From Shinella zoogloeoides (GTDB lineage Bacteria; Pseudomonadota; Alphaproteobacteria; Rhizobiales; Rhizobiaceae), in contig NZ_CP093528.1 in NCBI RefSeq assembly GCF_022682305.1, forward strand, positions 3,469,501 through 3,533,500: DNA of 64,000 nucleotides, given 5' to 3'. The notes beneath the pieces were generated by a model that saw only the letters and a program-made list of their open reading frames with translations, did not search any database and was not told where the DNA came from. Positions 8,635-50,335 of the stretch are shown in pieces. Position 1 is the stretch's first letter. The number at the start of each line of letters is the position of its first letter. The position numbers were made by a program, and so were the translations under genes.

Positions 8635-8674
8635 CGGATAGTCCGTTTCGCGGCGATGATCCGCCCGCCCCGCA

Positions 8675-10334: not shown

Positions 10335-10363
10335 TGGCCAACCCGGTTCTGGACGTCGTTACC

Positions 10364-34011: not shown

Positions 34012-34461
34012 CTAGTGAATCGATTCGCGGCCTTTGCTTGAAGTTTTCACCTCAGCATCGCCATCGCGGCTGGTGTCTTTCAAGGGCAAAATATCGAGCG
34101 GGATCAGATCCCCGTCATTCTCGCTTTCGGCAACGAGCTGGATCATCTTTTCGAGTGTTTCCAGTTGAGCGATTTTTTCCTCGACCGCAGCGAGTTGCTC
34201 CTTTGCGATGCGGAGCGCTTCGGCCGGACTTGAGAACGAGACGTCGGCAAGTCGAAACAGGTCCTTGATCGCCTCGATGCTGAAGCCGAGATCGCGGGCG
34301 CGGCGGATGAAGAGAAGGCGATGGACCGCGCCGTGGTCATAGCGTCGCTGGTTTCCCTTGCTCCGCAAGCGCTCGCGCAGCAACCCAATCTGCTCGTAGT
34401 AGCGGATCGTCGGAATTTTGACGCCGGTGAGCTGAGAGAGTTCGCCGATGCCGATATCCAT
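34012..34461 (-). CDS. MerR-family transcriptional regulator lacking cysteines
   Basis: DNA-binding regulator of 149 residues. The winged helix reads MDIGIGELSQLTGVKIPTIR then YYEQIGLL, closest in type to the metal-sensing MerR group, and a coiled-coil dimerisation helix follows (LRIAKEQLAAVEEKIAQLET). No cysteine occurs anywhere in the protein, so it cannot use the usual thiolate metal site; the signal is probably something else. It lies between the RND permease gene and the FAD monooxygenase gene, all on the minus strand. Its target may be the MerR-type promoter at 39090 or one of its own. Confidence 0.85.
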   Translation of the reverse strand: MDIGIGELSQLTGVKIPTIRYYEQIGLLRERLRSKGNQRRYDHGAVHRLLFIRRARDLGFSIEAIKDLFRLADVSFSSPAEALRIAKEQLAAVEEKIAQLETLEKMIQLVAESENDGDLIPLDILPLKDTSRDGDAEVKTSSKGRESIH

Positions 34462-34597: not shown

Positions 34598-37500
34598 TCA
34601 GGTATGGACTTCGGTCGCCTGTTGGGGCGACGCGCTCCGCCTGATCGCGAGCCGCCGCACGACCACATAGAAGATCGGCGTCAGAAGCAGGCCGAATAGC
34701 GTCACGCCGAGCATGCCGGCAAAGACGGCGATGCCCATGGCGTGCCGCATTTCGGCGCCCGCTCCGGTGGCGATGACGAGCGGAATCACGCCGGCAATGA
34801 AGGCGAGCGACGTCATCAGGATCGGCCGAAGGCGCAGGCGGGCCGCTTCGAGAACGGCGGCCAACGGATCGACGCCTTCATCCTCCTTCGCTCGGGCGAA
34901 CTCGACGATTAGGATTGCGTTCTTCGCGGCAAGTCCGACCAGAACGACAAAGCCGATCTGCGTGAAGATGTTGTTGTCGCCGCCGGTGAACCACACCCCG
35001 GCGATCGCCGAGAGGAGCGCCATTGGAGCGATCAGCAGCACCGCGAAGGGAAGCGACCAACTGTTGTACTGCGCCGCGAGGATCAGGAACGCGAGCAAGA
35101 CGGACAGCGGGAAGACATACATCGCTGTGTCGCCGGCCTGCTTCTCCTGATAGGCGAGATCGGTCCATTCGAAGGCCATGCCCGCTGGCAAGGTTTCGGA
35201 TGCGATGCGCTCCATGGCGGCGGTGGCCTGCCCGAACGAGTATCCGGGCGCGGGACTGCCGCTGATGTCCGCAGAGGGGAAGCCGTTATAGTGCATGACA
35301 CGATCGGGGCCTGAGCTGTGCTTGATGGTCAGCAGAGCCGAAAGCGGAATCATGTTGCCGGTCGCGTTGCGGACCTTCAGGCGGCCGATGTCCTCGGGCT
35401 GCATGCGGAACGGCGCGTCCGCCTGCACCATCACGCGGTAGGTGCGGCCGAAGCGATTGAAGTCGTTCGCGTAGAGCGAGCCGAGGTTGACCTGCAACGT
35501 CTCGAAGATGGTATTGAGCGGCACGCCTTGCGACTTCGCTTTCACCCTGTCGATATCGACCTGCACCTGCGGCGCGTTCACCTGGAAACTTGCCAGCATG
35601 CCGGCCAGCTCGGGCGTCTGCATCGCTCTGCCCATGACCGCGCCTTGAGCCTGCGCGAGCGCCTCGAAGCCGAGGCCCGCTCGATCCTCGATCTGGATCT
35701 TGAAGCCGCCGGTCGAACCAAGTCCCGGAACGGGCGGCGGCGGGAAGATGCCGGCGAAGCCATCGGGAATCTGGCTGAACTTGCCCATGAGCTTGCCGGC
35801 GATGGCAAAGGCCGAAAGAGACGGGTCCTTTCGTTCGTCGAACGGCTTGAGCATCGTGAACATGACGGCCGCATTGGGGATGTTGACCATGCCGTTGACC
35901 GAGAGCCCTGGAAACGCGACGACACTCTCCACGCCCGGCTCGGCCAGCGCGATCTCCGACATTTTCTTGACGACGGCCTCGGTGCGGTCGAGCGAAGCGC
36001 CAGTCGGGAGCTGGGCGATGCCGACGAGATAGTATTTGTCCTGGGCCGGCACGAAGCCGCCCGGCACCGTCTGGAAGCCGACCCACGTCATGCCGACCAG
36101 GCCGGCATAGACGAGCAGGACGAGAACACTGAGCCTCGCGGCACGGCGCACCGACCAGACGTAGGCGGTCGAAGCGCCGTCGAAGAAGCGATTGAACAGC
36201 CGGAAGAACCAGCCGAACAGGAAGTCGATCACGCGGGTCAGGAGATCGCGCTTCACGTCGCCGTGGTGGGGTTTCAGGAGCACGCCAGCAAGCGCGGGAG
36301 AGAGCGTGAGGGAGTTGATCGCCGACAGGATGGTCGAGATCGCAATCGTCAGCGCAAACTGGCGGTAGAATTCGCCCTGCAAGCCCGAGAGGAACGCCGA
36401 TGGAATGAACACGGCCGACAGGACAGAGGTGATGGCTACGATCGGCCCCGTCACCTCGTCCATGGCCTTGCGCGCCGCCTCTTTCGGCGTTTCCCCAAGC
36501 GCGATGTGGCGCTCGACGTTCTCGACCACGACGATCGCGTCGTCGACCACGATGCCGATCGAGAGAACGAGGCCGAAGAGGGACAACGTGTTCAGCGAGA
36601 AACCGAACATATACATCAGCGCAAATGTGCCGACCAAGGAGACGGGAACGGCGACAAGGGGAATAATCGACGCCCGCCACGTCTGGAGGAACAGAACCAC
36701 GACGATAACGACCAGCACGACGGCTTCGAGCAGCGTCATGACCACAGCTTCGAGAGACGCCTTGACGAACACCGTTGGATCGTAGGCGATCCGATATTCG
36801 ATGCCTTCCGGAAAGCCCTTCTGAAGTTCGGCCATGGTGGTGCGGACGGCGCTCGATACGTCGAGCGCATTCGCGCCGGGGCTTTGGATGATCTGCATCG
36901 CGAGCGCCGGCTTGCCGTTGAGGAGGCTACGAAGGGCATAGGAGTCTGCGCCAAGCTCGATGCGGGCAACGTCGCGCAAGCGGGTGACCTGACCGTCGGT
37001 GCCTGTCTTTACGACGATCTCGCCGAACTGCTGCTCACTGGACAGCCTTCCGAGCGTGTTGACCGTCACCTGAAACGCGGCCGAGGCTTCGGGCTGCTGG
37101 CCGACCGAGCCGGCGGCCACCTGAACGTTCTGTTCCTGAATCGCCCCAACGACGTCGCTGGCGGTCAGCCCCCTCGCGGCCACCTTGGCCGGATCGAGCC
37201 ACACGCGCATGGAATACTCGCCAGCCCCCCAGACGAGTACGTCACCCACACCTGACAGGCGCGCAAGCTGGTCGCGTACCTGCAAGGTGGCGAAGTTCGA
37301 CAGGTAGAGGGGATCGTAGCGATTGTCGGGCGAGACGAGATGGACGACCATCAGGATGTCTGGGGACGTCTTCTGCGTCACGACCCCGATGCGCTGCACT
37401 TCCTGCGGAAGCCTGGGCAATGCGCGCGAAACGCGGTTCTGCACCTGAATCTGCGCCATGTCGGGATCGGTGCCCTGCTTGAACGCAATGGTCAGGGTCA

Positions 37501-37768
37501 TGCGTCCGTCGGTCGCCGCCTGTGAACTCATGTAGAGCATATTCTCGACGCCGTTGATCGCCTGCTCCAGAGGGGCGGCGACGGTTTCGGCGATCACGGC
37601 GGGATTTGCGCCGGGATAGCTGGCGGTGACCTGCACCGTCGGCGGCGTGACCTGGGGATATTCGCTGAGCGGGAGCTTCAGGAGCGTGAGGCCGCCAGCG
37701 ATCAGCATCAGGACGGACAGAACGACCGCGAAGATCGGGCGGTCGACGAAAAAGCGCGGGATATTCAT
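34598..37768 (-). CDS. RND efflux pump inner-membrane permease (HAE-1 type)
   Basis: Proton-driven trimeric efflux transporter, 1056 residues, of the AcrB/MexB class. Twelve membrane helices and two large periplasmic loops follow the pattern; the proton-relay Asp pair is in GLVLSIGIVVDDAIVVVENV (TM4), and the N-terminus MNIPRFFVDRPIFAVVLSVL is typical. The hydrophobe-type sequence points to drugs or organic compounds rather than the heavy-metal HME class. The start overlaps the adaptor stop as ATGA, so they are coupled. No outer-membrane factor gene is present. Promoter evidence places it under copper-type MerR control. Confidence 0.93.
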   Translation of the reverse strand: MNIPRFFVDRPIFAVVLSVLMLIAGGLTLLKLPLSEYPQVTPPTVQVTASYPGANPAVIAETVAAPLEQAINGVENMLYMSSQAATDGRMTLTIAFKQGTDPDMAQIQVQNRVSRALPRLPQEVQRIGVVTQKTSPDILMVVHLVSPDNRYDPLYLSNFATLQVRDQLARLSGVGDVLVWGAGEYSMRVWLDPAKVAARGLTASDVVGAIQEQNVQVAAGSVGQQPEASAAFQVTVNTLGRLSSEQQFGEIVVKTGTDGQVTRLRDVARIELGADSYALRSLLNGKPALAMQIIQSPGANALDVSSAVRTTMAELQKGFPEGIEYRIAYDPTVFVKASLEAVVMTLLEAVVLVVIVVVLFLQTWRASIIPLVAVPVSLVGTFALMYMFGFSLNTLSLFGLVLSIGIVVDDAIVVVENVERHIALGETPKEAARKAMDEVTGPIVAITSVLSAVFIPSAFLSGLQGEFYRQFALTIAISTILSAINSLTLSPALAGVLLKPHHGDVKRDLLTRVIDFLFGWFFRLFNRFFDGASTAYVWSVRRAARLSVLVLLVYAGLVGMTWVGFQTVPGGFVPAQDKYYLVGIAQLPTGASLDRTEAVVKKMSEIALAEPGVESVVAFPGLSVNGMVNIPNAAVMFTMLKPFDERKDPSLSAFAIAGKLMGKFSQIPDGFAGIFPPPPVPGLGSTGGFKIQIEDRAGLGFEALAQAQGAVMGRAMQTPELAGMLASFQVNAPQVQVDIDRVKAKSQGVPLNTIFETLQVNLGSLYANDFNRFGRTYRVMVQADAPFRMQPEDIGRLKVRNATGNMIPLSALLTIKHSSGPDRVMHYNGFPSADISGSPAPGYSFGQATAAMERIASETLPAGMAFEWTDLAYQEKQAGDTAMYVFPLSVLLAFLILAAQYNSWSLPFAVLLIAPMALLSAIAGVWFTGGDNNIFTQIGFVVLVGLAAKNAILIVEFARAKEDEGVDPLAAVLEAARLRLRPILMTSLAFIAGVIPLVIATGAGAEMRHAMGIAVFAGMLGVTLFGLLLTPIFYVVVRRLAIRRSASPQQATEVHT

Positions 37769-39024
37769 TGACGCGCCTCCTGCGAGTCTGCCGCAGCCCG
37801 GTCATCTGTAGCGGTGTCGCCGGGCGCCATGGAGATCATCTGCGGAACTACCTGCATGCCTGGGCGGACGAGTCCTTTTACGATGATCTTGTCGGCCGGC
37901 TTGAGACCCGCCGCGACGACGCGCAGGCCATCGATCATGGGTCCGATTTCGACCGGGCGGTATTCCGCCTTGTTGTCGGCGCCGAGAGCGAGAACGTAGC
38001 GCCGCCCCTGGTCGATACCGATCGCCTGATCGTCGATGAGCACGGTCTGGGCTGGTTCGGCCGTGACGAGCTTGACCCGCGCGAACAGGCCGGGCGTCAG
38101 CCTGCCGTCCGGGTTCTTGACAATGGCTCTTGCGCGGATCGTCCCGGTGCTCCGGTCCACGCGGTTGCCGAGGAAGTCGAGTTCGCCGGCATGCGGAAAA
38201 CCCGTATCGGTCATCAAGCCCAGATGCACCGGGAGCTTGCCGGCAACCGTTCCCGTCTCGGGTGCGCGGGCATTGGCTACGAAGCCGAGATAGGTGGCTT
38301 CGTCGATGTCGAAATAGACGTAGAGCGGATCGGTCGCGACAATCGTGGTGAGGAGCGTCGCAGCGCCTGCATTGCCGCCGGTGACGAGATTGCCTTCCGT
38401 GACGAGGACCCGGTCGATGCGCCCAGCAATCGGCGCGGTGACGCGGGCAAAGGAGAGATCGAGTTCGGCGGCCGAGACGGCAACCTTGGCGATGTCGACT
38501 TGCGCCTGGCGTTGACGCCGCATGGCCAGCGCGTCATCGAAAGCCTTGCGCGGCGCGTTGCCGTTCGAAGCGAGCGCCTCGGTGCGCCCGAAGTCGATCT
38601 CGGCCTGATCGAGCAGGACGTTTGCCTGCTGCAACTGCGCTTTGGCCGCGTTCAGGACCACCTCGAACGGTCGCGGATCGATCTGGAAGAGAAGCTCGCC
38701 GGGCCGCACGAGACCGCCTTCGGGAACGCTGGCGGCGACGATCGCGCCGCCGACGCGCGGACGCAGCTCGATAGCCTTGGTCGCTTCCAGATGGCCGGTA
38801 AACTCAACGGATGGCGCGACCTTGCGCGTGATGACCTCGGCAACCGGCACCTGCGGAACAGGCATCTGTGCCGGCTGCGCGACAGCCTCCGACGCAGCGG
38901 TCGAGGAAGCAAGCGCCAGAACGCTTTTGGCGTAGGGTCCGATCTCGTCGCGATAGACGATGGCAAGCGTGCCACCGGCGATGACGGCGCCGGCTAAAAA
39001 CAGGGCGGCGGCTTTATTACTCAT
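37765..39024 (-). CDS. RND efflux periplasmic adaptor (membrane fusion protein)
   Basis: Links the RND permease to an outer-membrane channel. The 419-residue protein has an N-terminal membrane anchor (AALFLAGAVIAGGTLAIVY), an alpha-hairpin with the lipoyl halves (ELRPRVGGAIVAASVPEGGL), and a beta-barrel segment (VKNPDGRLTPGLFARVKLV). No lipobox was seen. First gene of the operon; its 5' flank contains a CueR-type promoter at 39090-39120. Confidence 0.92.
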   Translation of the reverse strand: MSNKAAALFLAGAVIAGGTLAIVYRDEIGPYAKSVLALASSTAASEAVAQPAQMPVPQVPVAEVITRKVAPSVEFTGHLEATKAIELRPRVGGAIVAASVPEGGLVRPGELLFQIDPRPFEVVLNAAKAQLQQANVLLDQAEIDFGRTEALASNGNAPRKAFDDALAMRRQRQAQVDIAKVAVSAAELDLSFARVTAPIAGRIDRVLVTEGNLVTGGNAGAATLLTTIVATDPLYVYFDIDEATYLGFVANARAPETGTVAGKLPVHLGLMTDTGFPHAGELDFLGNRVDRSTGTIRARAIVKNPDGRLTPGLFARVKLVTAEPAQTVLIDDQAIGIDQGRRYVLALGADNKAEYRPVEIGPMIDGLRVVAAGLKPADKIIVKGLVRPGMQVVPQMISMAPGDTATDDRAAADSQEARQ

Positions 39025-39089: not shown

Positions 39090-39120
39090 AAGGTGCGGTT
39101 TCCAACGATGGAAAGGTCAA
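39090..39120 (-). promoter_or_regulatory. CueR/MerR-type promoter of the RND operon
   Basis: On the minus strand TTGACC (plus 39115-39120) and CACCTT (plus 39090-39095) are 19 bases apart, the stretched spacing typical of MerR-family activators. The spacer carries a TTTCCA-N4-TGGAAA dyad, close to the CueR box in front of copA. It lies 66 bases before the adaptor ATG. Confidence 0.75.
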
Positions 39121-39280
39121 GGGCCTTGCAGGATGTTTCCGAACAGACCCTTGACGCTGCCGCCTAGCCATGTCGTGGCCAACCGCATGTCTCGCTTCGC
39201 CGACGTCTTGGAAGAAGCGGAGTCCGTCCCCGAATGAGCGCTATGGATCAGCGTTACCTCGACGGGCTCCAGTTGTGTGA

Positions 39281-39308
39281 AGCCGCCAGACCGATCCGGT
39301 TGGCGGCT
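39281..39308 (-). terminator. Hairpin downstream of the Zn/Cd ATPase gene
   Basis: AGCCGCCA and TGGCGGCT form a perfect 8-bp stem with a 12-base loop, 17 bases beyond the ATPase stop. No U-tract follows. The remaining gap 39121-39280 shows only short open frames that I cannot assign. Confidence 0.4.
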
Positions 39309-39324
39309 CCTTGAGTGCGAGCGA

Positions 39325-42069
39325 CTAGTGGCTTTCGGCCGGGACGAGAGGGTGAGAACGCATGCCCTCATCGCGACCGTCATCGGCAGACTTCGCACCC
39401 TTGAAGCGCAAGAGCCGCAACGCATTCAGCGTGACGATCGCCGTTGCGCCCGTATCGGCAAGGACCGCGATCCAGAGGCCGGTGATGCCGAGGACGCTGG
39501 TAACGAGGAACAGGCCCTTCAACGCGAGAGCGAAGACGACGTTCTGGTGGATGTTCGCCATGGTGGCGCGGGACAGCGCGACGAGATGGGCGACGTCCGT
39601 GACACGGCTCTTGAGCAGGGCGGCGTCCGCAGTCTCGATCGCCACATCGGTTCCGCCGCCCATGGCGATCCCGACGTCGGCCGTCGCCAGTGCCGGAGCA
39701 TCGTTGATGCCGTCGCCGACCATGGCCACCTTGGACTTCCGCTTCATCTCGTTGACGAGATCGAGCTTGTCCTGCGGAAGCAGCTCGGCGCTCCACTCGA
39801 TACCGAGACCCTTGGCAATGGCCTGGGCGGTGCGCCGGTTGTCGCCGGTTAGCATGACGGAGCGGACCCCCATAGCTTTGAGCTGGGCGACACCCTCCCG
39901 CGCGTCACGGCGCGGTTCGTCGCGCAGGGCGATGAGGCCGAGGACTTCCTTCGCCTGCTCGTCGAAAAGGACGGCAACGGTATTGCCGCGATCTTCGAGC
40001 TTCTCGATGGCGCTGCGCTCAAGCACCCCGAGCGTCACCATCTGTGCGGCATGGGTCGGGGAGCTGACGGCGAGGCGACGTCCGGCAACGGTCGCATGTA
40101 CGGCCTTACCCGCCGTCGCCGATGCATCCTGTGCAAGGGGAACGGCGATGCCATCGGTTTCGGCACGGCCGATGATCGCCTTCGCAAGCGGATGGCTCGA
40201 ACCTGTTTCGACCGCCGCTGCCAAAGCGAGAACGTCGCTCTCCTCGTTCTTGCCAAAGGCGAAGACTTCGGTGACGCGCGGCTTGCCCTCGGTGAGCGTA
40301 CCCGTCTTATCGAAGGCGATGGCGCTCACCTTGCCAATGGTTTCGAGCGCATTACCGCCCTTGATCAGGAGGCCGCGGCGCGTGCCGACGGCGAGGCCCG
40401 AGGCAATCGCAGCAGGCGTCGAGAGGACAAGCGCACAGGGACATGCGATCAGCAGCAGCGCGAGGCCGCGGTAGATCCATGTGTCCCAATCACCGCCCAT
40501 CGCGAGCGGCGGGACGACGACGATCAGCGCGGCGATCAGCATCACCGCCGGGGTATAGTAGCAGCTAAAATTCTCAATGAAGCGCGCGGTCGGGGCCTTG
40601 GCGGACTGCGCCTGCTCGACGAGCTGGATGATGCGCGAGATCGTGTTGTCGGAAGCCGTCTTTTCAACGCGGACCTGAAGAACGCCATCGACATTGATGG
40701 AGCCGGCGAAAATGCTGTCTCCCTTGGCCTTCGAGCGCGGCACGGATTCGCCGGTGATAGGCGACTCGTCTAGGCTGGAAGCGCCCTGTATGATTTGCCC
40801 GTCCGCCGGCACGCGGTCGCCGGGCCGCACCAGAACTAGATCGCTGACACGCAAGGACGTGGCCGGGACGCTGCGCTGCCCGCCATTCGGATCGAGCAGG
40901 ACGGCCGTCTTCGGCACGAGCGATGCAAGGGCCTTTATGCCGGCGCGCGCCCTCCCGGCCGCGACGCTTTCGAGCAATTCCCCGACCGCGAACAGGAATA
41001 CGACCGCAGCCGCCTCTTCAGCCTCGCCGATCACGAGGGCGCCTATCGAGGCGACGACCATCAACGTCTCGATAGAGAACGGAGATCCAGAGGTCGCGAG
41101 CGCGAATGCCTTGCGAGCGAAAGGAATGACGCCCGCGACGACGGCGGCGGCAAAGATCCATTCCGCATAAAGGGGGAAGAATTGGGCAATGGCGTACGCC
41201 GAGCCCATCAGCAGACCGAGCCCAATGACATGCTTCCCCTTGCGGGTCTGCCACCAGCGCTGATTGGGCATCGCTGGCGCTGGCGCGACGTCGATGGCCG
41301 CATCCGACGAAGCCGAAAGCTCGCGTGTGTTAGACACACCGAAGCCGAGGCTCTTGATCGTCTTTTCGATGTCGGCGACCTTGGTGATCGCGCCGGCAGC
41401 GAGCGTCAGTTCAAGCGTTTCGGTCGTGAAGTTCACGCGCACGTCGGAGACGTCTGGCATCCGTGCCAAGGCGACCTCGATCTTGCCGACGCAGCTTGCG
41501 CAATCCATCCCCTCGACGCGCATGGAGACATTGGGCGGAGAGGCCGGTGCGGCGCGGGGAGTTGGCGCAAGGCCCGCGTGATCATGTCCAGAGCAACCAC
41601 CGTGGCCGTGATCATGATCGTGATGAGCGTGGTCGTGGTCATGGTGAGCGTGATCGTGACCGTGACCGTCATGACCATGGTCGTGCTTGTGATCGTGGCC
41701 GCCGCAGCCGCTGTGATCGTCGTGGCTTGCGTGACCGTGATCGTGATCGCCGGCGCAGCCGTTGTGATCATGACCAGCATGGGCGTCGGAGCGCTGCTCA
41801 GGCGCGGCGGGAATCGCAGAAGACGGCAGCTCGGTCACGTCGAACCCAAGCGAGCGAATCTTCTTGGCGATATCCTTCGACGTCGTTTTGCTCGTGGCAT
41901 CGCGTGAGAGCAGCAATGTCTCGGTCGCGAAGTTGACGGCAACGTCGGAGATACCCCCCAGACGGCCCAAGGCCGTCTCGATCTTGCCGACGCAGCTTGC
42001 GCAATCCATGCCGTCGACACGAAAGCCGAGCCGTTCACCAGCGTCCGGCGTTGAAAGTCCAGTTGTCAT
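39325..42069 (-). CDS. zntA: Zn/Cd/Pb-translocating P1B-type ATPase with two HMA domains and a His-rich linker
   Basis: Inner-membrane efflux ATPase, 914 residues. Two heavy-metal-associated domains each carry GMDCASC (near residues 22 and 190); between them lies a stretch of about 75 residues extremely rich in His, Asp and Gly (for example HDHGHDGHGHDHAHHDHDHA). The CPC metal site is in LLIACPCALVLSTPAAI (TM6, near residue 540), the phosphorylation motif is [11 protein letters not shown] (near 590), and [20 protein letters not shown] closes the ATP domain. CPC plus HMA and His tail indicates Zn2+, Cd2+ or Pb2+. A palindromic ArsR-type operator lies in front. Confidence 0.93.
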   Translation of the reverse strand: MTTGLSTPDAGERLGFRVDGMDCASCVGKIETALGRLGGISDVAVNFATETLLLSRDATSKTTSKDIAKKIRSLGFDVTELPSSAIPAAPEQRSDAHAGHDHNGCAGDHDHGHASHDDHSGCGGHDHKHDHGHDGHGHDHAHHDHDHAHHDHDHGHGGCSGHDHAGLAPTPRAAPASPPNVSMRVEGMDCASCVGKIEVALARMPDVSDVRVNFTTETLELTLAAGAITKVADIEKTIKSLGFGVSNTRELSASSDAAIDVAPAPAMPNQRWWQTRKGKHVIGLGLLMGSAYAIAQFFPLYAEWIFAAAVVAGVIPFARKAFALATSGSPFSIETLMVVASIGALVIGEAEEAAAVVFLFAVGELLESVAAGRARAGIKALASLVPKTAVLLDPNGGQRSVPATSLRVSDLVLVRPGDRVPADGQIIQGASSLDESPITGESVPRSKAKGDSIFAGSINVDGVLQVRVEKTASDNTISRIIQLVEQAQSAKAPTARFIENFSCYYTPAVMLIAALIVVVPPLAMGGDWDTWIYRGLALLLIACPCALVLSTPAAIASGLAVGTRRGLLIKGGNALETIGKVSAIAFDKTGTLTEGKPRVTEVFAFGKNEESDVLALAAAVETGSSHPLAKAIIGRAETDGIAVPLAQDASATAGKAVHATVAGRRLAVSSPTHAAQMVTLGVLERSAIEKLEDRGNTVAVLFDEQAKEVLGLIALRDEPRRDAREGVAQLKAMGVRSVMLTGDNRRTAQAIAKGLGIEWSAELLPQDKLDLVNEMKRKSKVAMVGDGINDAPALATADVGIAMGGGTDVAIETADAALLKSRVTDVAHLVALSRATMANIHQNVVFALALKGLFLVTSVLGITGLWIAVLADTGATAIVTLNALRLLRFKGAKSADDGRDEGMRSHPLVPAESH

Positions 42070-42145
42070 TCCGATCTCCTTTCCGGCCGCCGTAGCGGGC
42101 GCGCGTGCTCACACGCCCTGCGCGGCTTCGGAAGGAGTCAATAAC

Positions 42146-42169
42146 ACACTTGAACAGCTATTCAAGTGT
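42146..42169 (-). promoter_or_regulatory. ArsR/SmtB-type operator in front of zntA
   Basis: A 24-base near-perfect palindrome: arms ACACTTGAA and TTCAAGTGT flank CAGCTA, so the core TGAACAGCTATTCA matches the 12-2-12 operator form of SmtB/CzrA repressors with a single mismatched pair. It lies about 80 bases before the zntA start, between zntA and the repressor gene. Confidence 0.85.
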
Positions 42170-42201
42170 TAGTGGTAAAATTATGCTCTTCTCCAGGCGG
42201 A

Positions 42202-42591
42202 TCAGTCGTCCGCATGATCCTCTGAAATATGCGTCGCCATATCCTGAAGAACATGGCTGACGTGCTGGTCGGCGATCGCGTAGAAGATCTGCTTGCCTTG
42301 GCGATCGCCCTTGACGAGACGCGCGCCGCGCAGCAGGCGTAGATGGTGGCTGACGAGGGTCACGGACAGGTCGAGCCGCTCGGCGATATCGCCCACCGAA
42401 ATGGGCGCCGGTACACAGCTCAGCAGGATCTTCAACCGTGAGGGATCGCCGAGCAGGCGAAACGTTTCCGCGAGGATCGTGATCTCGTTCTGCGAGAGTG
42501 AAGGGAGCAGGAGGTGACCTTCAACCTCCATATGCTCGGGGGTCGCACGATCGTCTGGCTTCGTGGCGTTTGTCTTCTTGAGAGCAGTCAT
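42202..42591 (-). CDS. ArsR/SmtB-family zinc-type repressor
   Basis: Dimeric winged-helix repressor, 129 residues, that releases DNA when it binds metal. The HTH lies in VGDIAERLDLSVTLVSHHLR, preceded by LLGDPSRLKILLSCVPAP. The last helix carries DQHVSHVLQDMATHISED: Asp, His two residues later, His eleven further on, and Glu three more on, matching the alpha-5 zinc site of SmtB/CzrA. The lone Cys in helix 3 region (LLSCVP) does not form the CadC/ArsR thiolate pair. It precedes zntA on the same strand; the operator lies between them. Confidence 0.9.
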   Translation of the reverse strand: MTALKKTNATKPDDRATPEHMEVEGHLLLPSLSQNEITILAETFRLLGDPSRLKILLSCVPAPISVGDIAERLDLSVTLVSHHLRLLRGARLVKGDRQGKQIFYAIADQHVSHVLQDMATHISEDHADD

Positions 42592-42799
42592 CTGCGTGCT
42601 TTACCTGAGTTCGGGACGGAACCTGCCGGCATTTGATCGCCAAGAGCTGTCCGTGTTTGATTGGTCTCGCCCAGTTTACCGGATGGGCGCGCAATCACAA
42701 TGCGAAACACGGTCGCTGTCGATCGGCGGGACAGTTGGCGCAGTCCTTCTCTGCCCCTGCGTCATATCTCGAATTTTCCTTTTCCGCGCACGAACAGTC

Positions 42800-42830
42800 T
42801 TGACCTTACAAGCGCTGGAAGCCGCACGCT
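42800..42830 (+). promoter_or_regulatory. CueR/MerR-type promoter of the glutaredoxin operon
   Basis: TTGACC at 42800-42805 and CACGCT at 42825-42830 with a 19-base spacer containing CTTACAAGCGCTGGAAG, a degenerate version of the CueR dyad present at copA, copZ and the RND operon. It lies 83 bases before the glutaredoxin ATG. The rest of the 322-base gap 42592-42913 shows no gene. Confidence 0.6.
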
Positions 42831-42913
42831 GACGACAATCCTGCCAAATCCGCCTGCGGTTGGGCGGCCTGGCGGCGGGGCAACCGTGTCGAATTCAGAG
42901 AAAGGCAAGACCG

Positions 42914-43180
42914 ATGACGGAGAGCAGCAAACCCCAGATTCTCATCTACACCACACCGACCTGTCCGGACTGCCACGCGCTCAAACGCTGGCTCGACCAA
43001 CAGGGCCTCGCCTACGAGGAACGCGACCTCACCGACCCGAAGATCGCCGAGGAGGCAAAGGCCCGGACCGGCGTCCGGGTCGCTCCGATCACCATCATCG
43101 GATCGGAAGTCTTCTACGGGACCTTCCCGAGCCAGAAGCCGGGCCTCGTCAAGGCGCTCGGTCTCGCCGGGAGCCTGTGA
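42914..43180 (+). CDS. Glutaredoxin-family protein (CPDC)
   Basis: Small cytosolic thiol-disulfide oxidoreductase, 88 residues. It begins with the strand PQILIYTTPTCPDCHALKRW containing the active site CPDC, followed by the glutathione-binding VRVAPITIIG (TVP-type cis-Pro replaced by VAP) and a terminal helix. ATG chosen at 42914; the longer frame to 42860 includes non-homologous residues. The ferredoxin-linked reductase gene starts ten bases after its stop, so the two are an operon, with a CueR-type promoter ahead. Confidence 0.87.
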   Translation: MTESSKPQILIYTTPTCPDCHALKRWLDQQGLAYEERDLTDPKIAEEAKARTGVRVAPITIIGSEVFYGTFPSQKPGLVKALGLAGSL

Positions 43181-43190
43181 GGAGACGCAG

Positions 43191-44207
43191 ATGACGAGCA
43201 AGTTCGTTGATATCCGGCAAGCGCGGACCAGCCTTGAGGTCCAAGAGGACCAAACCATCCTCGACGCCGCGCTCGCCGTCGGCATTCCCTATCCTCACGG
43301 TTGCCGTTCCGGCCGCTGCGGCTCCTGCAAGTCCCGCCTGATCGAGGGCGAGGTGGAATTGCTCCAGCACTCGCGCTTCGCGCTCACCGAGGAAGAGAAG
43401 GCCGATGGCCTGATCCTCGCATGCCGCGCTATGCCGCAAACGGATGCGGCCGTCGCTTGGCTGGGCAGCGATGACGACGATTCCGTGGAGACGCCGCGAC
43501 GCCTGGACGCGATTGTCACCGGCCTCGACGATCTCACGCACGATATCAAGCTGGTGCGGATTGCACCCGCGGATGGTAGCCCGTTGCTGTTTACCGCCGG
43601 GCAGTATGCGCAGGTCGGCTTCGATGGAGCGCCGGCGCGCAGTTATTCGATGGCCAATCGTCACGGCGACGACAGCCTTGAATTCCACATTCGTCGCGTT
43701 CCGGGCGGCGTCACCTCGGAGCATGTGCATTTTGGGCTGAAGACTGGCGACAGGGTGGCGCTCGAATTTCCGCTGGGCTCTTCCTACCTGCGCCAGCATC
43801 ATTCCGGCCCGATTCTTTGCATCGCCGGGGGCTCCGGCCTGGCGCCGATCAAATCGATCGTCGAAACCGCTCTTGCGCACGGCATGAAGCAGCCGATCCA
43901 TGTTTACTTCGGCGCACGCGGCGAGCGAGATCTCTATCTCGTGGAGCATTTCCAGGCCATGGCCGAGCGTCACTCCACTCTTGCCTTCTCGGCCGTGCTC
44001 TCGGAGGCAGAGTCAGCGCAGCACCGGCGCGGTTTCGTGACCCAGGCGGTGGCCGAGGATCTGGAGGATCTCGACGGCTGGAAAGCCTACGTCGCCGGGC
44101 CGCCGCCGATGGTCGATGCAGCGATGGAGGTCGCCTTCGGACGGGGACTGCGCAGGGAGGACATGCACGCTGACGTGTTCTTCACGCCTGACGATCAGGA
44201 TGCGTGA
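43191..44207 (+). CDS. 2Fe-2S ferredoxin / FAD-NAD(P)H reductase fusion
   Basis: Electron-transfer protein of 338 residues, built like the reductase subunits of oxygenases. The N-terminal plant-type ferredoxin domain has the cluster motif CRSGRCGSCKSRL with a fourth Cys in ILACRAMPQ; then come an FAD-binding domain with ARSYSMAN (RxYS) and a nucleotide domain with ILCIAGGSGLAPIKSI and the terminal CxxG replacement AGPPPMVDAA. No oxygenase component is encoded nearby. It follows the glutaredoxin gene by ten bases. The electron acceptor is unknown; the glutaredoxin or a periplasmic copper oxidase system are speculative. Confidence 0.87.
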   Translation: MTSKFVDIRQARTSLEVQEDQTILDAALAVGIPYPHGCRSGRCGSCKSRLIEGEVELLQHSRFALTEEEKADGLILACRAMPQTDAAVAWLGSDDDDSVETPRRLDAIVTGLDDLTHDIKLVRIAPADGSPLLFTAGQYAQVGFDGAPARSYSMANRHGDDSLEFHIRRVPGGVTSEHVHFGLKTGDRVALEFPLGSSYLRQHHSGPILCIAGGSGLAPIKSIVETALAHGMKQPIHVYFGARGERDLYLVEHFQAMAERHSTLAFSAVLSEAESAQHRRGFVTQAVAEDLEDLDGWKAYVAGPPPMVDAAMEVAFGRGLRREDMHADVFFTPDDQDA

Positions 44208-44289
44208 GGACGCCAGCCAGCAAGAGGGCAAGTCGCGGGCGAAATGGGGGAGAGCAGCTCGCCAGAGCGGGCAAAGGAGACCGAGAGTT

Positions 44290-44538
44290 ATGAGCAGCCA
44301 TACCGGGCGCCGCCCGAAGCCGACCGTTGCAGAGCTTCTTTCCGATCCGATTGTCCGCGCTGTGATGTCGGCGGACGGAGTGGACGAGGCCCAACTGCGA
44401 GAGCTGCTTGATCGCGTTTCCCGAGAGCAGTCGACGTGCGCGCCCCCCCACGCGCACGAAGCTGTGAAGATAGTCGGGAGCGCTATCGAGCAAGCCTGCG
44501 CCGCGATCCCTCGCGGCGCAGGCGCCCTATCACGCTGA
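44290..44538 (+). CDS. Small hypothetical protein
   Basis: An 82-residue soluble protein I do not recognise. It starts MSSHTGRRPKPTVAELLSDP and has a short helical body with acidic patches, a single Cys in QSTCAPPH and another near the end. AAAGGAGACCGAG lies upstream, giving a ribosome site. It follows the reductase by 82 bases on the same strand and overlaps the convergent multicopper oxidase stop by nine bases. Possibly part of the same transcript. Confidence 0.6.
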   Translation: MSSHTGRRPKPTVAELLSDPIVRAVMSADGVDEAQLRELLDRVSREQSTCAPPHAHEAVKIVGSAIEQACAAIPRGAGALSR

Positions 44539-45981
44539 TACGCTGAACTCGGTCATCATGCCAGTTTGAAGGTGCGGCATGTGGTGGCAATGCAGCATCC
44601 AGCGCGCCGCCTCGCCAGCATCGAGCGCCACCGTCACCATGCCCATCGGAGGAACATAGACGGTGTCGCGCCGCGCGCCTTCGAACCGCTTGCCGTTGAT
44701 CTCCACGACCTGAAAAACGTGGCCGTGCAGGTGCATCGGATGGCCCATCATCGACATATTGTGGAACATGATCTCGACGCGCTCGCCAGTCGTTGCGACA
44801 ATCGGCTTGTGCTCTCCCCAGACCTTGCCGTCGATGGTCCAGAGGTAGGGCTGCATTGAGCCGCCTAGCATGACCATCTGGGTGCGTTGCGCGGCACGCG
44901 GCGGCAGATTGTCCGTCGCCCGCAGCCTCTGCTCTTGCGAAAGCTCGATGTCGAATGCAGGCGTATCCGCGTCGCCGAGTGCGGGAACCTTCTGAATAGT
45001 CGCGCCCGGCGTTGCGAGGATCAGCCCGGTGCGCTCCTTTGCGCCCTCGCGCAACGCCAGCACAGGCCAGGCTCCATCTCCGGCAAGCTCCAGCTCAAGA
45101 TCGAGACGCTGGCCCATGGCGACGCCGAACCGTTTGCCCTCAAGCGGTTGCACGGCATGGCCGTCGACAGCTACGAGGCGCGCCGAAAGCTCGCCGGTAT
45201 CGATCCAGAAGACGGTGGCCGAAGCGCCGTTGATCACCCGAAGCTTTATCCGTCCGCCCTTCTCGACCCTGACGATCTGCGGATCGGACAAGGTGCGGTC
45301 GTTGGTGAGGTAGGCGTCCCAATCGTAGTCGTTCAGGTCCACGGCCATGCCCTGCATCGAGGACATATCCATCTTCATGCCGGAATGGTCCATCGACGCG
45401 CCGGGATCGGATTGGCCTCCCATCGCGCTCATATCATGGCCGCCACCATGTCCGCCGGTGATCTCCTGCATGACCTCTTCGGGCGTCTTGAACGAGAAAT
45501 CATGAAGGAACATCACGACCTCCTGGCGGTCGGCCTTCACGTCTTCGGCGCTGCGCACGATCAAGGCCGCGGCGAGAAGGTTCATTTCTTGAAGCGGGAT
45601 ATGCGCGTGCATCCAGTAGGTGCCGGGAAGCGGCTCATAGTCATAGGAGCGCGTTTCTCCGGGTTGCAGCATCGGGCGCGGCACGTCCGGAACGCCGTCC
45701 TGCTCGTTGGGCGGGATCTGGCCGTGCCAATGGATCAGGGTCGGCACATCGAGACGATTGGCCAGGTCGACGCGAAAGCGTTGTCCGGGGTCGAGAACCA
45801 ATCCTTGCCCGCTCGACCCTTCAAGGCCGAAGACTGTGGCGGCGCGCCCGTCGACGTCCAGCACGCGCGTTGCAGCGCTGAGGGCCATCGCGCTTTGGGC
45901 GTTGGCGAAGCGCGGTAGAGCTGCTGCGGATAGCGTGGCAGCGCCTGCGGCGAGAAAGCTGCGGCGTGAGATAAGCTTCAT
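44530..45981 (-). CDS. Multicopper oxidase (CopA/CueO-like)
   Basis: Periplasmic copper oxidase, 483 residues, expected to oxidise Cu(I) and confer copper tolerance. A twin-arginine signal (SRRSFLAAGAATLSAAALP) exports it folded. The copper ligands appear as IHWHGQIPP, WMHAHIPLQ, HPMHLHGHVFQV and LHCHHMPHLQTGMM. A Met/His-rich loop near residue 180 (GGHGGGHDMSAMGGQSD and SGMKMDMSSMQGM) resembles the labile copper-binding inserts of CueO and CopA. Downstream of the copZ-DUF305 group on the same strand. Confidence 0.93.
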   Translation of the reverse strand: MKLISRRSFLAAGAATLSAAALPRFANAQSAMALSAATRVLDVDGRAATVFGLEGSSGQGLVLDPGQRFRVDLANRLDVPTLIHWHGQIPPNEQDGVPDVPRPMLQPGETRSYDYEPLPGTYWMHAHIPLQEMNLLAAALIVRSAEDVKADRQEVVMFLHDFSFKTPEEVMQEITGGHGGGHDMSAMGGQSDPGASMDHSGMKMDMSSMQGMAVDLNDYDWDAYLTNDRTLSDPQIVRVEKGGRIKLRVINGASATVFWIDTGELSARLVAVDGHAVQPLEGKRFGVAMGQRLDLELELAGDGAWPVLALREGAKERTGLILATPGATIQKVPALGDADTPAFDIELSQEQRLRATDNLPPRAAQRTQMVMLGGSMQPYLWTIDGKVWGEHKPIVATTGERVEIMFHNMSMMGHPMHLHGHVFQVVEINGKRFEGARRDTVYVPPMGMVTVALDAGEAARWMLHCHHMPHLQTGMMTEFSVSA

Positions 45982-46033
45982 TTTCGGTCTCCTGGGAGGA
46001 CTATGCTCCCTCTGAATTCAGATCGGCGTGCGA

Positions 46034-46408
46034 CTAGGCAGGCCACTTGCGTTCAGCAAGACCGTCGTTGGGAGGGCGTTCGTTGCGTGCGGGGCCGATG
46101 CCGGCGAGGTCCGGCATCTCGGTAATGCTCCAGATCGCTGCGGTAGGAGCGGTGGCATTTGTCGGCGACTTAGGCGCAAGCCAGTGCGTCATGCCTGAGC
46201 ATAGGGCATAACAGAAGGCATTGTTTCCGTTGCAGATTCGATGTTCCTGGCACGGCACGGCAGCGGTATCCGCGGCCGGATGCTGCGATCCGTGTTCCGA
46301 AATCATTACGTGGGAGTTACTGGCCATGCGAGCACCGAGCGCCGGAACGGTCAACGCCACGCTGGCGAAGGAAAGGAGCATGAGCAGAGCGATGAACAGC
46401 CGTTGCAT
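46034..46408 (-). CDS. Small secreted cysteine-containing protein
   Basis: About 124 residues; the family is not recognised. A signal peptide (MQRLFIALLMLLSFASVALT) is followed by a mature part with four Cys in VPCQEHRICN and FCYALCSGM, spaced to form a metal site or disulfides. ATG 46408 was chosen; a TTG seven codons upstream is the only earlier start. It lies between the multicopper oxidase and DUF305 genes on the same strand, so a periplasmic copper role is inferred from context only. Confidence 0.6.
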   Translation of the reverse strand: MQRLFIALLMLLSFASVALTVPALGARMASNSHVMISEHGSQHPAADTAAVPCQEHRICNGNNAFCYALCSGMTHWLAPKSPTNATAPTAAIWSITEMPDLAGIGPARNERPPNDGLAERKWPA

Positions 46409-46551
46409 CGCCGTCAAAACGCCGTGCAAGACAACATCATCCGCACCCTCGGCTTGCGTTCATCCAGGGTGGTCCGCTCCCACCCGCTCGCCGCGTCCGC
46501 CGCCGAGCGTCTTTTTTGGTGACACACCACGGCGGTTCCAGGCGACACTGG

Positions 46552-46947
46552 TTACTTGCCTCGGTCGGCGAGCCACTTCTTCATCATGGCGATCTCGCCC
46601 TCCTGGGCCTTGACCACCTCTTCGGCGAGTTTGCGGACCTCGGGGTCCTTGCCGTACTGGAGCACGACCTTCGCCATGTCGATCGCGCCCTGATGGTGCG
46701 GGATCATACCGCGCATAAAGTCCACGTCGGCGTCGCCGGTATAGGGCACCATCATGTCCTTCATCATGGCATCCATGGCGGTCTCGTATGCCTTCGTCGA
46801 CGGCGTGTCCGATCCTGGCGTCTGCATGCCTGACATGTCGTGACCTTGCATCGTGTTGTTGTCCGTTTTCATTTGGGTTTGAGCGAATGCCAGGCCGCCG
46901 GCGATAGCGATGGCCCCTGCGATGAAGATCGGAGTGAGCTTGTTCAT
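46552..46947 (-). CDS. DUF305 domain-containing periplasmic protein
   Basis: A 131-residue exported protein with a signal peptide ([20 protein letters not shown]) and a DUF305 four-helix ferritin-like domain. It carries [10 protein letters not shown] (Met/His-rich) before the fold, then [18 protein letters not shown], the family motif that binds copper in CopM-type proteins, and ends [14 protein letters not shown]. The start MNKLTPIF has GGGAGCGAGACC upstream. It follows the copZ gene by 14 bases. Confidence 0.88.
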
Positions 46948-46961
46948 GGTCTCGCTCCCGT

Positions 46962-47156
46962 TCAGTTTGAGGTCGCCGGATAGCCGGCTTCTTCCAGAAC
47001 CTGCAAGATCGCGGACGGCGTGGCGGTCGTCTCGACCTTGACGGCGCGCGCGGCGGGATTCGTCTCGATCTTGGCTGCGGAGTCCACCGACTGGATCGCC
47101 TTGGTGACGGACTTGGCGCAACCGCCGCAGGTCATGTTTTCAATTTTGAGGTCCAT
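46962..47156 (-). CDS. copZ: CopZ-like copper chaperone (HMA domain)
   Basis: A 64-residue ferredoxin-fold metal chaperone: [17 protein letters not shown] contains the MTCGGC copper-binding motif; a single HMA domain makes up the whole protein. It would deliver Cu(I) to CopA, encoded divergently. First gene of the minus-strand copper operon, behind a CueR-type promoter. Confidence 0.92.
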
Positions 47157-47189
47157 GAGACTTCTCCTTGTTTTGATCTCATGTCGCCC

Positions 47190-47220
47190 AAGGTGGTGCT
47201 TCCAACCGTGGTAAGGTCAA
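47190..47220 (-). promoter_or_regulatory. CueR-type promoter of copZ
   Basis: On the minus strand TTGACC (plus 47215-47220) and CACCTT (plus 47190-47195) are separated by 19 bases that include CTTACCACGGTTGGAAG. It is divergent from the copA promoter 24 bases away. Confidence 0.85.
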
Positions 47221-47244
47221 GGGCCAAAAAAAGAAAATGCGCTA

Positions 47245-47275
47245 TTGACCTTCCCATGGTTGGAAGCCTCATTTT
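47245..47275 (+). promoter_or_regulatory. CueR-type promoter of copA
   Basis: TTGACC (47245-47250) and CATTTT (47270-47275) separated by 19 bases; the spacer contains CTTCCCATGGTTGGAAG, very close to known CueR boxes. A good ribosome site (AAAAGGAGG) precedes the copA ATG at 47317. Confidence 0.9.
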
Positions 47276-47316: not shown

Positions 47317-49824
47317 ATGAATGCCCCCGTTCGAGCTGCGGACACCAGGAACGCGGCAATTTCCCTGTCAATAGAAGGCATGACCTGCGCCTCCTGCGTC
47401 GGTCGTGTCGAACGAGCCCTCAAGGCCGTCCCCGGCGTTGCCGATGCGGTCGTCAACCTGGCGACCGAAAAGGCAAGCATCACGACGAATGCTCCCGTCG
47501 ATCGCGCTACGCTCGTCAAGGCCATCGAGGATGTCGGCTATGAGGTTTCGGAGAGCCCTGCCGCACAAGCGGCCGCCTCGCTTGAAGTCGCGATCGAGGG
47601 CATGACCTGCGCCTCCTGCGTGGGTCGTGTCGAGAAGGCCCTGAAGGCCGTGCCGGGCGTCACCAGCGCCGTCGTCAACCTCGCGACCGAGAAGGCCACG
47701 ATCCAGGGAACCGCAGACACGGCAGCCGTGATTGCGGCCATCGAGAATGCGGGCTACGACGCCAAGGTCATCTCGGCGGCAACCGGATCGAGCCAGGCCG
47801 AGACGAATGACCGCGCAGAGAAGAAGGAAGCCGAACGCCGCGAGCTGACCCGCGACTTCACCATCGCGGCGGTGCTGACCGCTCCGGTCTTCCTTTTGGA
47901 AATGGGCTCGCACCTCATTCCGGGCGTGCATGGCGTGATCGAATCCACCATCGGCATGACGAACAGTTGGTATCTCCAGTTCGTGCTGACGACGCTGGTG
48001 CTGTTCGTGCCGGGCATCCGCTTCTATGACAAGGGGCTTCCCGCCCTCTGGCGTCTGGCGCCGGACATGAACTCGCTGGTGGCAGTCGGCTCGCTCGCGG
48101 CTTACGGCTATTCGCTGGTCGCGACCTTCGCGCCGGGCTTCCTGCCCGCAGGGACGATCAACGTCTATTATGAAGCCGCCGCGGTCATCGTCACGCTGAT
48201 CCTGCTCGGCCGGCTGCTCGAAGCCCGCGCCAAGGGGCGTACCTCGGAAGCGATCAAGCGTCTGGTCGGCCTTCAGGCCAAGACGGCGCGCGTCCGCCGT
48301 GACGGCAAGACGGTCGATCTTCCGATCGACTCCGTGCTGTCGGGTGACATCGTGGAGGTCCGTCCCGGCGACCGTATCCCGGTCGATGGCGAGGTCATCG
48401 AGGGCGAAAGCTATGTCGATGAATCCATGATCACCGGCGAACCGATCCCGGTTTCCAAGACGAATCGTAGCGAGGTCGTCGCCGGCACCGTGAACCAGAA
48501 GGGCGCCTTCGCGATCCGCGCCACGGCGGTCGGCGGCAACACCGTGCTGTCGCAGATCATCCGCATGGTTGAGGAAGCACAAGGCTCGAAGCTGCCGATC
48601 CAAGCGCTGGTCGACAAGGTGACGATGTATTTCGTGCCGGCTGTCTTCGCCGTCGCGGCTCTGACCTTCGCGGCATGGCTCTATTTCGGGCCGTCGCCGG
48701 CGCTCACCTTCGCGCTGGTCAATGCGGTCGCCGTGCTGATCATCGCCTGCCCCTGCGCCATGGGTCTGGCTACGCCGACCTCGATCATGGTCGGCACCGG
48801 CCGGGGCGCGGAGCTGGGCGTACTCTTCCGCAAGGGTGAAGCGCTGCAACTGCTGAAGGACGCCAGGGTCGTGGCCGTCGACAAGACCGGCACGCTGACC
48901 GAGGGCAAGCCCGCCCTGACCGACCTCGAACTGGCCGCCGGCTTTGACCGTGCGACCGTGCTGGGTCTAATCGCGGCCGTCGAAGCCAAGTCAGAACACC
49001 CGATCGCCCGCGCCATCGTGGAAGCGGCCGAGGCGGAAGGCATCGCGCTTCCCGCCGTGTCTGGTTTCGAATCGGTAACCGGCTTCGGCGTGAAGGCCGT
49101 GGTCGACGGCAAGCGTATCGAGATCGGCGCGGACCGCTACATGGTCGAGCTTGGCCATGACGTGGCGGGCTTCGCCGTCGTGGCCGAACGGCTCGGCAAC
49201 GAGGGCAAGTCGCCGCTCTATGCCGCGATCGAGGGCAGGCTCGCGACGATCATTGCCGTGGCCGACCCGATCAAGGCGACGACGCCGGCCGCGATCAAGG
49301 CGCTGCACGATCTCGGGCTGAAAGTCGCGATGATCACCGGCGACAACCGGCGGACGGCCAAGGCCATCGCCGCGCGTCTCGGCATCGACGAGGTGGTGGC
49401 GGAAGTGCTGCCGGACGGCAAGGTCGAGGCGATCCGTCGCCTCAAGGCCGAGCACGGTAAGGTCGCCTTCGTCGGCGACGGCATCAACGACGCTCCGGCG
49501 CTCGCCGAGGCGGATGTGGGCCTCGCCATCGGCACCGGCACGGATATCGCCATCGAGGCGGCGGACGTGGTGCTGATGTCGGGCAGCCTGACCGGGGTGC
49601 CGAACGCCATCGCACTGTCGAAGGCGACGATTGGAAACATCCGGCAGAACCTGTTCTGGGCCTTCGCCTACAACACGGCCCTGATCCCGGTCGCCGCCGG
49701 CGCGCTCTATCCGGCCTACGGCATCCTGCTGTCGCCGGTCTTCGCCGCCGGCGCCATGGCCCTGTCGAGCGTCTTCGTGCTCGGCAATGCGTTGCGGCTC
49801 AAGACCTTCAAGGTCCCAACCTAA
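47317..49824 (+). CDS. copA: Cu(I)-translocating P1B-type ATPase
   Basis: Inner-membrane copper exporter, 835 residues. Two N-terminal HMA domains each carry [12 protein letters not shown] (residues about 22 and 92). The transmembrane metal site is CPC in [15 protein letters not shown] (near 478), phosphorylation motif [13 protein letters not shown] (near 522), and [20 protein letters not shown] closes the ATP-binding domain. The [16 protein letters not shown] of TM7 and the Met/Ser-containing TM8 fit class 1B-1 Cu(I) ATPases. Divergent from copZ, followed on the same strand by cueR. Confidence 0.96.
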
Positions 49825-49885: not shown

Positions 49886-50335
49886 ATGAATATCGGACAA
49901 GCTTCGAAAGCGTCCGGCGTCTCGGCCAAGATGATCCGCTACTACGAACATACCGGCCTCATTCCGGCCGCCGATCGGACGTCTTCCGGCTATCGCGACT
50001 ATTCGGACACGGACGTTCACATGCTGCGCTTCATCCGGCGCGCGCGTGATCTCGGCTTCTCGGTGGCCGAGATCGGCGATCTCCTCGGCCTCTGGCGCGA
50101 CGAGTCGCGGCAGAGCGCGGAGGTCAAGCGTCTGGCGCAGGGCCACATCGACGCGCTGGAGAAGAAGATCGCGGACTTGCAGGACATGGCGCACACGCTC
50201 ACGATGCTGGTGAAAGCCTGCACGGGCGACCATCGCCCGCATTGCCCGATCCTCCAGCGTCTGGAAACCGATCAGGACGATGAGGACCTCACGGTCCAGC
50301 CGCGCAGCGGTGCGATTACTCGTTCCGTGCAGTAG
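49886..50335 (+). CDS. cueR: Copper-responsive MerR-family activator
   Basis: Transcription factor of 149 residues. The HTH reads MNIGQASKASGVSAKMIRYY, then EHTGLIPAADRTSSGYRDYS, and the metal-binding loop has two Cys seven residues apart in VKACTGDHRPHCPIL, the Cu(I)/Ag(I) site of CueR. A C-terminal tail of about 20 residues extends beyond. ATG chosen with GGGAGAA upstream; the longer frame overlaps copA. The four dyad promoters in the window are its expected targets. Confidence 0.93.
   Translation: MNIGQASKASGVSAKMIRYYEHTGLIPAADRTSSGYRDYSDTDVHMLRFIRRARDLGFSVAEIGDLLGLWRDESRQSAEVKRLAQGHIDALEKKIADLQDMAHTLTMLVKACTGDHRPHCPILQRLETDQDDEDLTVQPRSGAITRSVQ

Follow-up and report, generated by a model that had tools for sequence, protein, structure and literature searches.

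The 64-kb window analysed here, which spans C1:3469501-3533500 of the 5.14 Mb, seven-contig genome of the soil bacterium Shinella zoogloeoides, carries four operons that are very likely under copper control through one shared type of promoter. They encode the copper-exporting ATPase CopA, a CopZ-like chaperone, the adaptor and permease of a resistance-nodulation-division (RND) efflux pump, and a glutaredoxin-like protein (Grx) together with a ferredoxin reductase (Fdr). Judged from the sequence, the four would form a regulon of CueR, a MerR-family regulator that senses Cu(I), Ag(I) and Au(I), and we are confident in reading this regulon as the cargo of a mobile island, probably an integrative and conjugative element (ICE). 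The regulon is ordinary in its mechanism and moderately new in its membership, and extends the known copper response. The four promoters are:

47245..47275, plus strand: copA promoter, CueR-type, TTGACC-ttcccatggttggaagcct-CATTTT, with TTGACC from 47245 and the -10 element ending at 47275
47190..47220, minus strand: copZ promoter, CueR-type, divergent from copA, TTGACC-ttaccacggttggaagcac-CACCTT
39090..39120, minus strand: promoter of the RND adaptor-permease operon, CueR-type, TTGACC-tttccatcgttggaaaccg-CACCTT
42800..42830, plus strand: promoter of the Grx-Fdr operon, CueR-type, TTGACC-ttacaagcgctggaagccg-CACGCT

Direct reading places exactly 19 bases between the -35 and -10 elements of all four promoters, with the box lying between them. 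The original prediction, made from the letters of this DNA, had claimed TTGACC, a CueR-type box and a -10 element at 19 bases for four promoters, and we located each of them in its place. The dyad CTTnCCA...TGGAAG that it had assigned to them is literal in copA and copZ, but the RND site has TGGAAA as its right arm and the Grx site reads CTTACAA...TGGAAG. The inner arms of the boxes are partly symmetric, those of copA best. None of the four promoters ends in GGAAGGT, as the full palindrome ACCTTCC...GGAAGGT would require. This ending also occurs in just 2 of the 84 copA/copZ sites of relatives from which the scoring matrix described below was trained, so that the complete palindrome is atypical for this lineage. 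Permina et al. (2006) give, in the part of their paper available, CueR/HmrR signals of the form ACCTTCCC-(5)-TGGAAGGT or ACCTTCCAG-(3)-CTGGAAGG within a 19-base spacer (PMC1526738), and our sites resemble these in that the box lies inside a spacer of this length.

Allowing up to two mismatches, the pattern TTGACCTTNCNANNGNTGGAA matched four times in the window, each time exactly, as against a mean of 0.02 and a maximum of 1 in 100 dinucleotide shuffles of the same DNA. As this pattern was derived from the four sites themselves, a matrix from other genomes is the better test. Such a matrix was built from 84 distinct copA/copZ sites, all from other genomes; the set contained neither any of the four sites nor any RND, Grx or Fdr site found in relatives. 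Its members had been preselected by the same consensus (up to 4 mismatches of 18), which makes the test mildly circular and not fully blind. Scanning both strands of the window and the adjoining 16 kb, about 160,000 positions, ranked the four promoters 1–4, with scores of 51.2 for copA, 47.8 for copZ, 43.4 for RND and 34.8 for Grx. Rank 5 fell to a site outside the window, in front of a LysR gene (21.5), and the sixth position scored -4.0; the best score in 60 single-strand letter shuffles of the window was 10.6. Across the whole genome, the shared pattern gave seven matches at up to two mismatches, namely the four promoters, the LysR-side site at C1:3534991 (one mismatch) and two others (two mismatches), compared with a single match for a reversed-pattern control. 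A looser pattern, at up to one mismatch, gave nine matches, which comprise the five known sites, one before the resident copA on contig C2, and three lying elsewhere, two of which are the two strands of one palindrome. In the family, for which 247 genomes including our own were searched throughout, the pattern was matched in at least 84 genomes, with 0 for the reversed control among the matches listed.

The promoters are conserved beyond their surroundings. Among diverged pairs of RND loci (n=16, window included), the 31-base promoter has an identity of 0.87 versus 0.33–0.34 in the 90-base ungapped flanks, and the Grx/Fdr loci (n=17, window included) show 0.84 versus 0.30–0.33 in ungapped flanks. 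With gapped alignment, box and flank measured 0.87 versus 0.50 for RND and 0.84 versus 0.41 for Grx. The box was the more identical of the two in all 103 RND pairs and all 130 Grx pairs. Near-identical pairs were dropped, and the loci were hand-picked among those bearing a site, so that these values speak to the retention of sites and not to their frequency.

Another set of 37 loci was selected by Fdr similarity alone, with the box playing no part in the selection. All 15 loci in which the start of the RND adaptor is visible have a box in front of it (L023 ends before that start), the weakest being that of the Achromobacter locus L025, with a matrix score of 24.3. Grx is present in 29 of these loci: 24 have a box of their own, four (L030-L032 and L042) have the order copA-grx-fdr-cueR, and in L025 a TTGACA box lies one gene upstream of Grx. 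L030 begins inside copA, and its copA box is therefore not visible. The eight loci without Grx consist of four from Agrobacterium, with the order copA-fdr-cueR and a copA box with two mismatches, and of L035 (a fragment), L039, L044 and L045, which show no copper link.

The family searches separate close from distant homologues; here and elsewhere, box mismatches are counted of 18. For the RND adaptor, 15 loci were found. All 11 at 49–100% identity carry the box, eight of them with 0–1 mismatch and the others with two (L157), three (L155) and four (L156), whereas it was found in 0 of the 4 adaptors at 41–42% identity. The Fdr search yielded 23 loci. Among the 20 at 51–100% identity, nine have their own box, ten lie downstream of a copA that is itself preceded by a box (0–4 mismatches), and one is a truncated copy with neither; Fdr genes without a box of their own mostly follow copA. 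In one locus (L177), 1.3 kb separates Grx from Fdr. None of the three Fdr genes at 37–40% identity has any box.

The cluster also encodes the regulator itself:

49886..50335, plus strand: cueR, downstream of copA; TIGR02044, 166.1 bits, cut-off 147.4 (protein scored from a start two codons earlier)

The island CueR aligns without gaps to E. coli CueR, and its sole two cysteines, Cys112 and Cys120, are aligned, as is Ser77. We take the two cysteines to be the Cu(I) ligands of CueR and Ser77 to be likewise a CueR-diagnostic position. The putative CueR-type control that the original prediction proposed for the four operons is supported by the matrix, by the conservation of the footprint, by a box that is present in the close clade and absent in distant homologues, and by the presence of a genuine CueR in the cluster. 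Following the established CueR mechanism, CueR bound between the -35 and -10 elements would hold the over-long promoter inactive, and metal-bound CueR would untwist the spacer and allow RNA polymerase to start.

The pump and the neighbouring regulator gene are as follows:

37765..39024, minus strand: RND periplasmic adaptor; TIGR01730, 241.5 bits, cut-off 94.9
34598..37768, minus strand: RND permease, HAE-1 type; NF000282, 1497.5 bits, cut-off 1250
34012..34461, minus strand: MerR-family gene without cysteines, downstream of the permease; PF13411 and PF09278, no NCBIfam cut-off met

The permease scores below the cut-off of the CusA/CzcA model TIGR00914 (360 versus 701 bits), and its best solved relatives are multidrug-type pumps. 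Because it is of the HAE-1 and not the CusA/CzcA type, direct export of Cu(I) by the pump is unlikely. It would rather remove products of copper damage, or organic or copper-chelate compounds, than free Cu(I). No gene for an outer-membrane factor is present in the operon, which consists of adaptor and permease with the MerR gene behind them, and to which this search was confined.

The second less expected operon encodes:

42914..43180, plus strand: glutaredoxin-like protein (Grx), CPDC active site; PF00462, 54.2 bits
43191..44207, plus strand: Fdr, BenC-like [2Fe-2S]-FAD-NAD(P)H ferredoxin reductase; PF00111, PF00970 and PF00175 above cut-off

The CPDC motif of Grx is kept in 21 of 21 aligned sequences, and the protein falls below both the NrdH model (37.9 versus 85.75 bits) and the Grx3 model (27.5 versus 90 bits). 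Cys38, Cys43, Cys46 and Cys78 of Fdr, which belong to its [2Fe-2S] cluster, are present in all 28 copper-clade relatives compared. Fdr lies below the BenC equivalog cut-off (207.4 versus 430 bits), and no dioxygenase component was found among the cluster proteins scanned. The pair may serve in the repair or shielding of thiols, with electrons passing from NAD(P)H to FAD and the [2Fe-2S] cluster and possibly on to Grx; this last transfer is a guess. In at least 5 of the 20 close family loci (L164, L165, L170, L173 and L178), Fdr stands directly behind the box or copA without an adjacent Grx, and we therefore regard Fdr as the core enzyme, often partnered by Grx.

The remaining genes of the copA and copZ operons are:

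47317..49824, plus strand: copA, Cu-exporting P-type ATPase; TIGR01511, 592.5 bits, cut-off 397
46962..47156, minus strand: copZ-like chaperone; best NCBIfam match CopZ_AFE_1862, 46.4 bits, below the cut-off of 85
46552..46947, minus strand: CopM/DUF305-type metallochaperone, 14 bases after copZ; NF049983, 129.1 bits, cut-off 90
44530..45981, minus strand: multicopper oxidase; TIGR01480, 211 bits, below the cut-off of 479

CopZ and CopA would carry and then export cytosolic Cu(I), and CopM and the multicopper oxidase would act outside the cytoplasm. The genes for copZ, copM, an unnamed open reading frame (ORF) and the multicopper oxidase follow each other on one strand, spaced by 14, 122 and 52 bases in that order, and read-through from the copZ promoter into the multicopper oxidase gene is possible. 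The idea that the multicopper oxidase gene or the ZntA/ArsR operon has a CueR box of its own was rejected, as no site beyond the top five scored above -4.0.

Several observations weigh against the proposed regulon or against the breadth of its support. Neither the RND nor the Grx site has a perfect dyad, and Grx has the lowest matrix score among the four. Some boxes in relatives are marginal, with three or four mismatches (L155, L156 and the copA boxes of L187 and L191). Near-identical relatives such as L012-L019 make the counts overstate independence, and the loci L047-L116 were found via the box itself and are biased in its favour. The RND adaptor matches in pieces in L010, L011, L029 and L043, where the copies may be broken. 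In L036, L037 and L038 (at 10001-10456), which are in other respects the nearest copies of the island, the match to Fdr is limited to residues 1–148, and the gene is possibly interrupted. The loci that have Fdr without Grx weaken the idea that Fdr reduces Grx. Finally, a second CueR encoded on C2 could share or take over the control of the island promoters.

This last point leads to an alternative in which the island promoters are activated chiefly by the resident CueR of C2 and not by that of the island, or in which the two proteins share them. The second protein is 58% identical to the island CueR and is encoded beside another copA (L220, about 5687-8800), whose own box, TTGACC-19-CACGAT, is weaker, with three mismatches. 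On the island, cueR lies directly behind copA, and many relatives keep copA and cueR together with these boxes, and we consider this arrangement unlikely. It is quite improbable that the RND and Grx boxes, while CueR-type by descent, are weak or non-responsive relics of copied copper promoters. Such a fate would suit their imperfect dyads, and available parts of a P. aeruginosa study report that CueR has a lower affinity for mexPQ-opmE than for copZ2, with smaller induction (PMC12833586). However, the 21-base cores of the RND and Grx boxes show 0.88–0.92 identity against about 0.3 in the ungapped flanks.

Slightly less probable still is the control of the RND operon by the cysteine-less MerR protein, which would answer an organic ligand instead of copper. 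Its gene lies behind that of the permease in the same orientation, MerR proteins use spacers of 19–20 bases, and it accompanies the pump in L009, L010, L029 and L036-L038. Against this, the RND box is kept in L020, L021, L022, L024 and L077-L082, where no such MerR gene was found beside the pump (L031 and L032, in which the pump runs to the end of the locus, were not counted). A 78% homologue stands beside ZntA without an RND gene in L012 and L014-L019, and the RND box scores like the copA and copZ sites in the matrix. Since diverged loci keep the box where this MerR gene was not found beside the pump, the protein seems an unlikely regulator of it. The notion that the similarity arose by chance, or that the sites belong to a MerR regulator of zinc and cadmium, is barely credible. 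Genes for a Zn/Cd-type ATPase and ArsR are indeed situated between the sites, but the chance expectation of 0.02 and the matrix ranks of 1–4 speak against coincidence, and a Zn/Cd regulator was rejected on the type of signal: the published ZntR signal, in the portion of the source available, places a 22-base palindrome within a spacer of 20 bases, and these boxes do not resemble it (PMC1526738). CueR-type control remains our preferred explanation for all four promoters.

When comparing this regulon with known systems, the remark in the original prediction that an RND pump and a Grx-reductase pair are less usual under CueR appears fair, but they are not unprecedented, as published precedents exist. 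In Salmonella, GesABC is the same pump as MdsABC, and GolS is a gold-sensing paralogue of CueR. To our knowledge, no Grx-Fdr pair belongs to the GolS system. Gold-induced, MdsABC-mediated drug resistance was reported to depend on GolS, according to the accessible part of that work (PMC10333786), and the likeness to our system lies in an RND pump reported to be under a CueR-like MerR regulator. In P. aeruginosa, CueR activates copZ1/2, mexPQ-opmE, copA1 and PA3515-3519, as far as excerpts of the two papers go (PMC7922089, PMC12833586). The regulon there is similar to ours in placing a Cu-ATPase, chaperones and an RND multidrug-type pump under CueR. Unlike in P. aeruginosa, no outer-membrane factor gene follows the pump here, Grx-Fdr is added and the genes are clustered on an island. 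The likeness of our pump to MexPQ and GesABC is one of type and regulator.

The closest parallel to the redox pair that we cite comes from Bordetella pertussis, in which copZ-prxgrx-gorB was described, in the section available, as largely CueR-dependent and partly dependent on OxyR as well (PMC7794356). Both systems comprise a copper chaperone, a glutaredoxin-type protein and a flavoprotein reductase that uses NAD(P)H. Whereas Bordetella has a peroxiredoxin-glutaredoxin fusion and a glutathione reductase, according to the same section, the glutaredoxin of S. zoogloeoides is of the CPDC kind and its partner a BenC-like [2Fe-2S] ferredoxin reductase. The main text of Permina et al., supplements excluded, contains no mention of glutaredoxin, ferredoxin or RND in the part available (PMC1526738). 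Likewise, the accessible portions of PMC9948745 and PMC5552934 hold nothing on such a reductase, their sole match to ferredoxin being the name of a fold. The literature searched, which covered few subscription journals and no supplements, yielded no BenC-like ferredoxin reductase controlled by CueR; within that literature, Fdr appears to be new as a CueR target.

The island setting is reflected by both composition and ancestry. G+C is 0.64–0.67 before about 32 kb and 0.60–0.64 after it, and a tRNA-Leu(CAA) gene at 32346-32432 (plus strand) lies where the value drops, marking a possible island border. No repeat of the 25 bases at the end of this tRNA gene, such as would mark an ICE attachment site, was detected at up to one mismatch. 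Among 18 named genomes, the argininosuccinate lyase of the window comes closest to that of Shinella sp. SUS2 (L022), at 96% identity, and is 82% identical to those of three Brucella-named genomes (L026, L027 and L043); this single gene places the host in Shinella or close to it. The copper genes, in turn, are 92–98% identical to those of Pseudaminobacter (L038) and of an alphaproteobacterial metagenome-assembled genome (L037), except for Fdr (81%, over residues 1–148 alone), and 70–92% identical to those of the Shinella relative L022. Just to the right of the window lie what we take to be the trb conjugation genes. The differing affinities of the lyase and the copper genes, together with these adjacent trb genes, fit horizontal acquisition of the copper genes as cargo, probably that of an ICE. 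A stretch of about 10.7 kb around 59353-61005 is absent from the otherwise collinear L009 locus; the ORF at 59353-61005 (minus strand) presumably resembles an IS66-type transposase.

The LysR-side site lies beyond the right end of the window:

C1:3534991 (L008 5992-6022, 1.5 kb right of the window), plus strand: fifth CueR-type site, TTGACC-ttgtcaccgttggaatctg-CACGAT

Its start lies 103 bases upstream of the ATG start codon of a LysR gene (L008 6095-7006) that is convergent with trbI. A search with this LysR protein gave 81 matches in 52 of the 247 genomes, and 26 of the 30 loci examined have trbI nearby. A box (up to 4 mismatches, within 600 bases upstream of LysR) is present in two of the 30, our own and G412, where it lies 282 bases before the matched LysR start; in L120, about 160 bases upstream of LysR are visible. 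In Thalassospira L009, a similar box stands 335 bases upstream of LysR and opposite a second copZ; in L030/L031, a small ORF and an MFS gene come ahead of LysR, and the box lies in front of both. No box was found before LysR in L028 or in L104 (G345), the latter having copper cargo near its LysR gene. Since the box occurs in 2 of 30 LysR loci, it looks like cargo at the boundary and not like a property of the LysR-trb scaffold. On the same count, copper control of the ICE was rejected as the main claim. The fifth box looks like an outer promoter of the copper cargo that would read into the LysR gene of the ICE. That copper reaches the conjugation module, with the fifth promoter driving LysR and a copper pulse changing the expression or transfer of the element, is conceivable but doubtful. 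A 79%-identical copy of this LysR gene is present at C1:482605-483486, perhaps from a second element in the genome.

Other metal- and thiol-related genes are found close by. The Zn/Cd-type ATPase gene, with a His-rich stretch in its product, and the arsR gene lie at 39325-42591 (minus strand), and an inverted repeat, ACACTTGAACAGCTATTCAAGTGT, at about 42146 between the two is likely to be an ArsR operator. A glutaredoxin-MauE fusion protein is encoded at 52008-52769 (plus strand) of the window, and no box was found before this copy. Its homologues in L059, L060 and L069 carry a CueR-type box and represent a further kind of target.

Together, these results firmly tie a recurrent, uncharacterised Fdr, with or without Grx, to the copper genes of alphaproteobacteria. 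They also add one more lineage to those in which an RND pump of the drug type seems to be wired to copper, which bears on how copper exposure might raise the expression of such pumps. If the LysR-side site works, metal stress would be linked to the transfer of the island.

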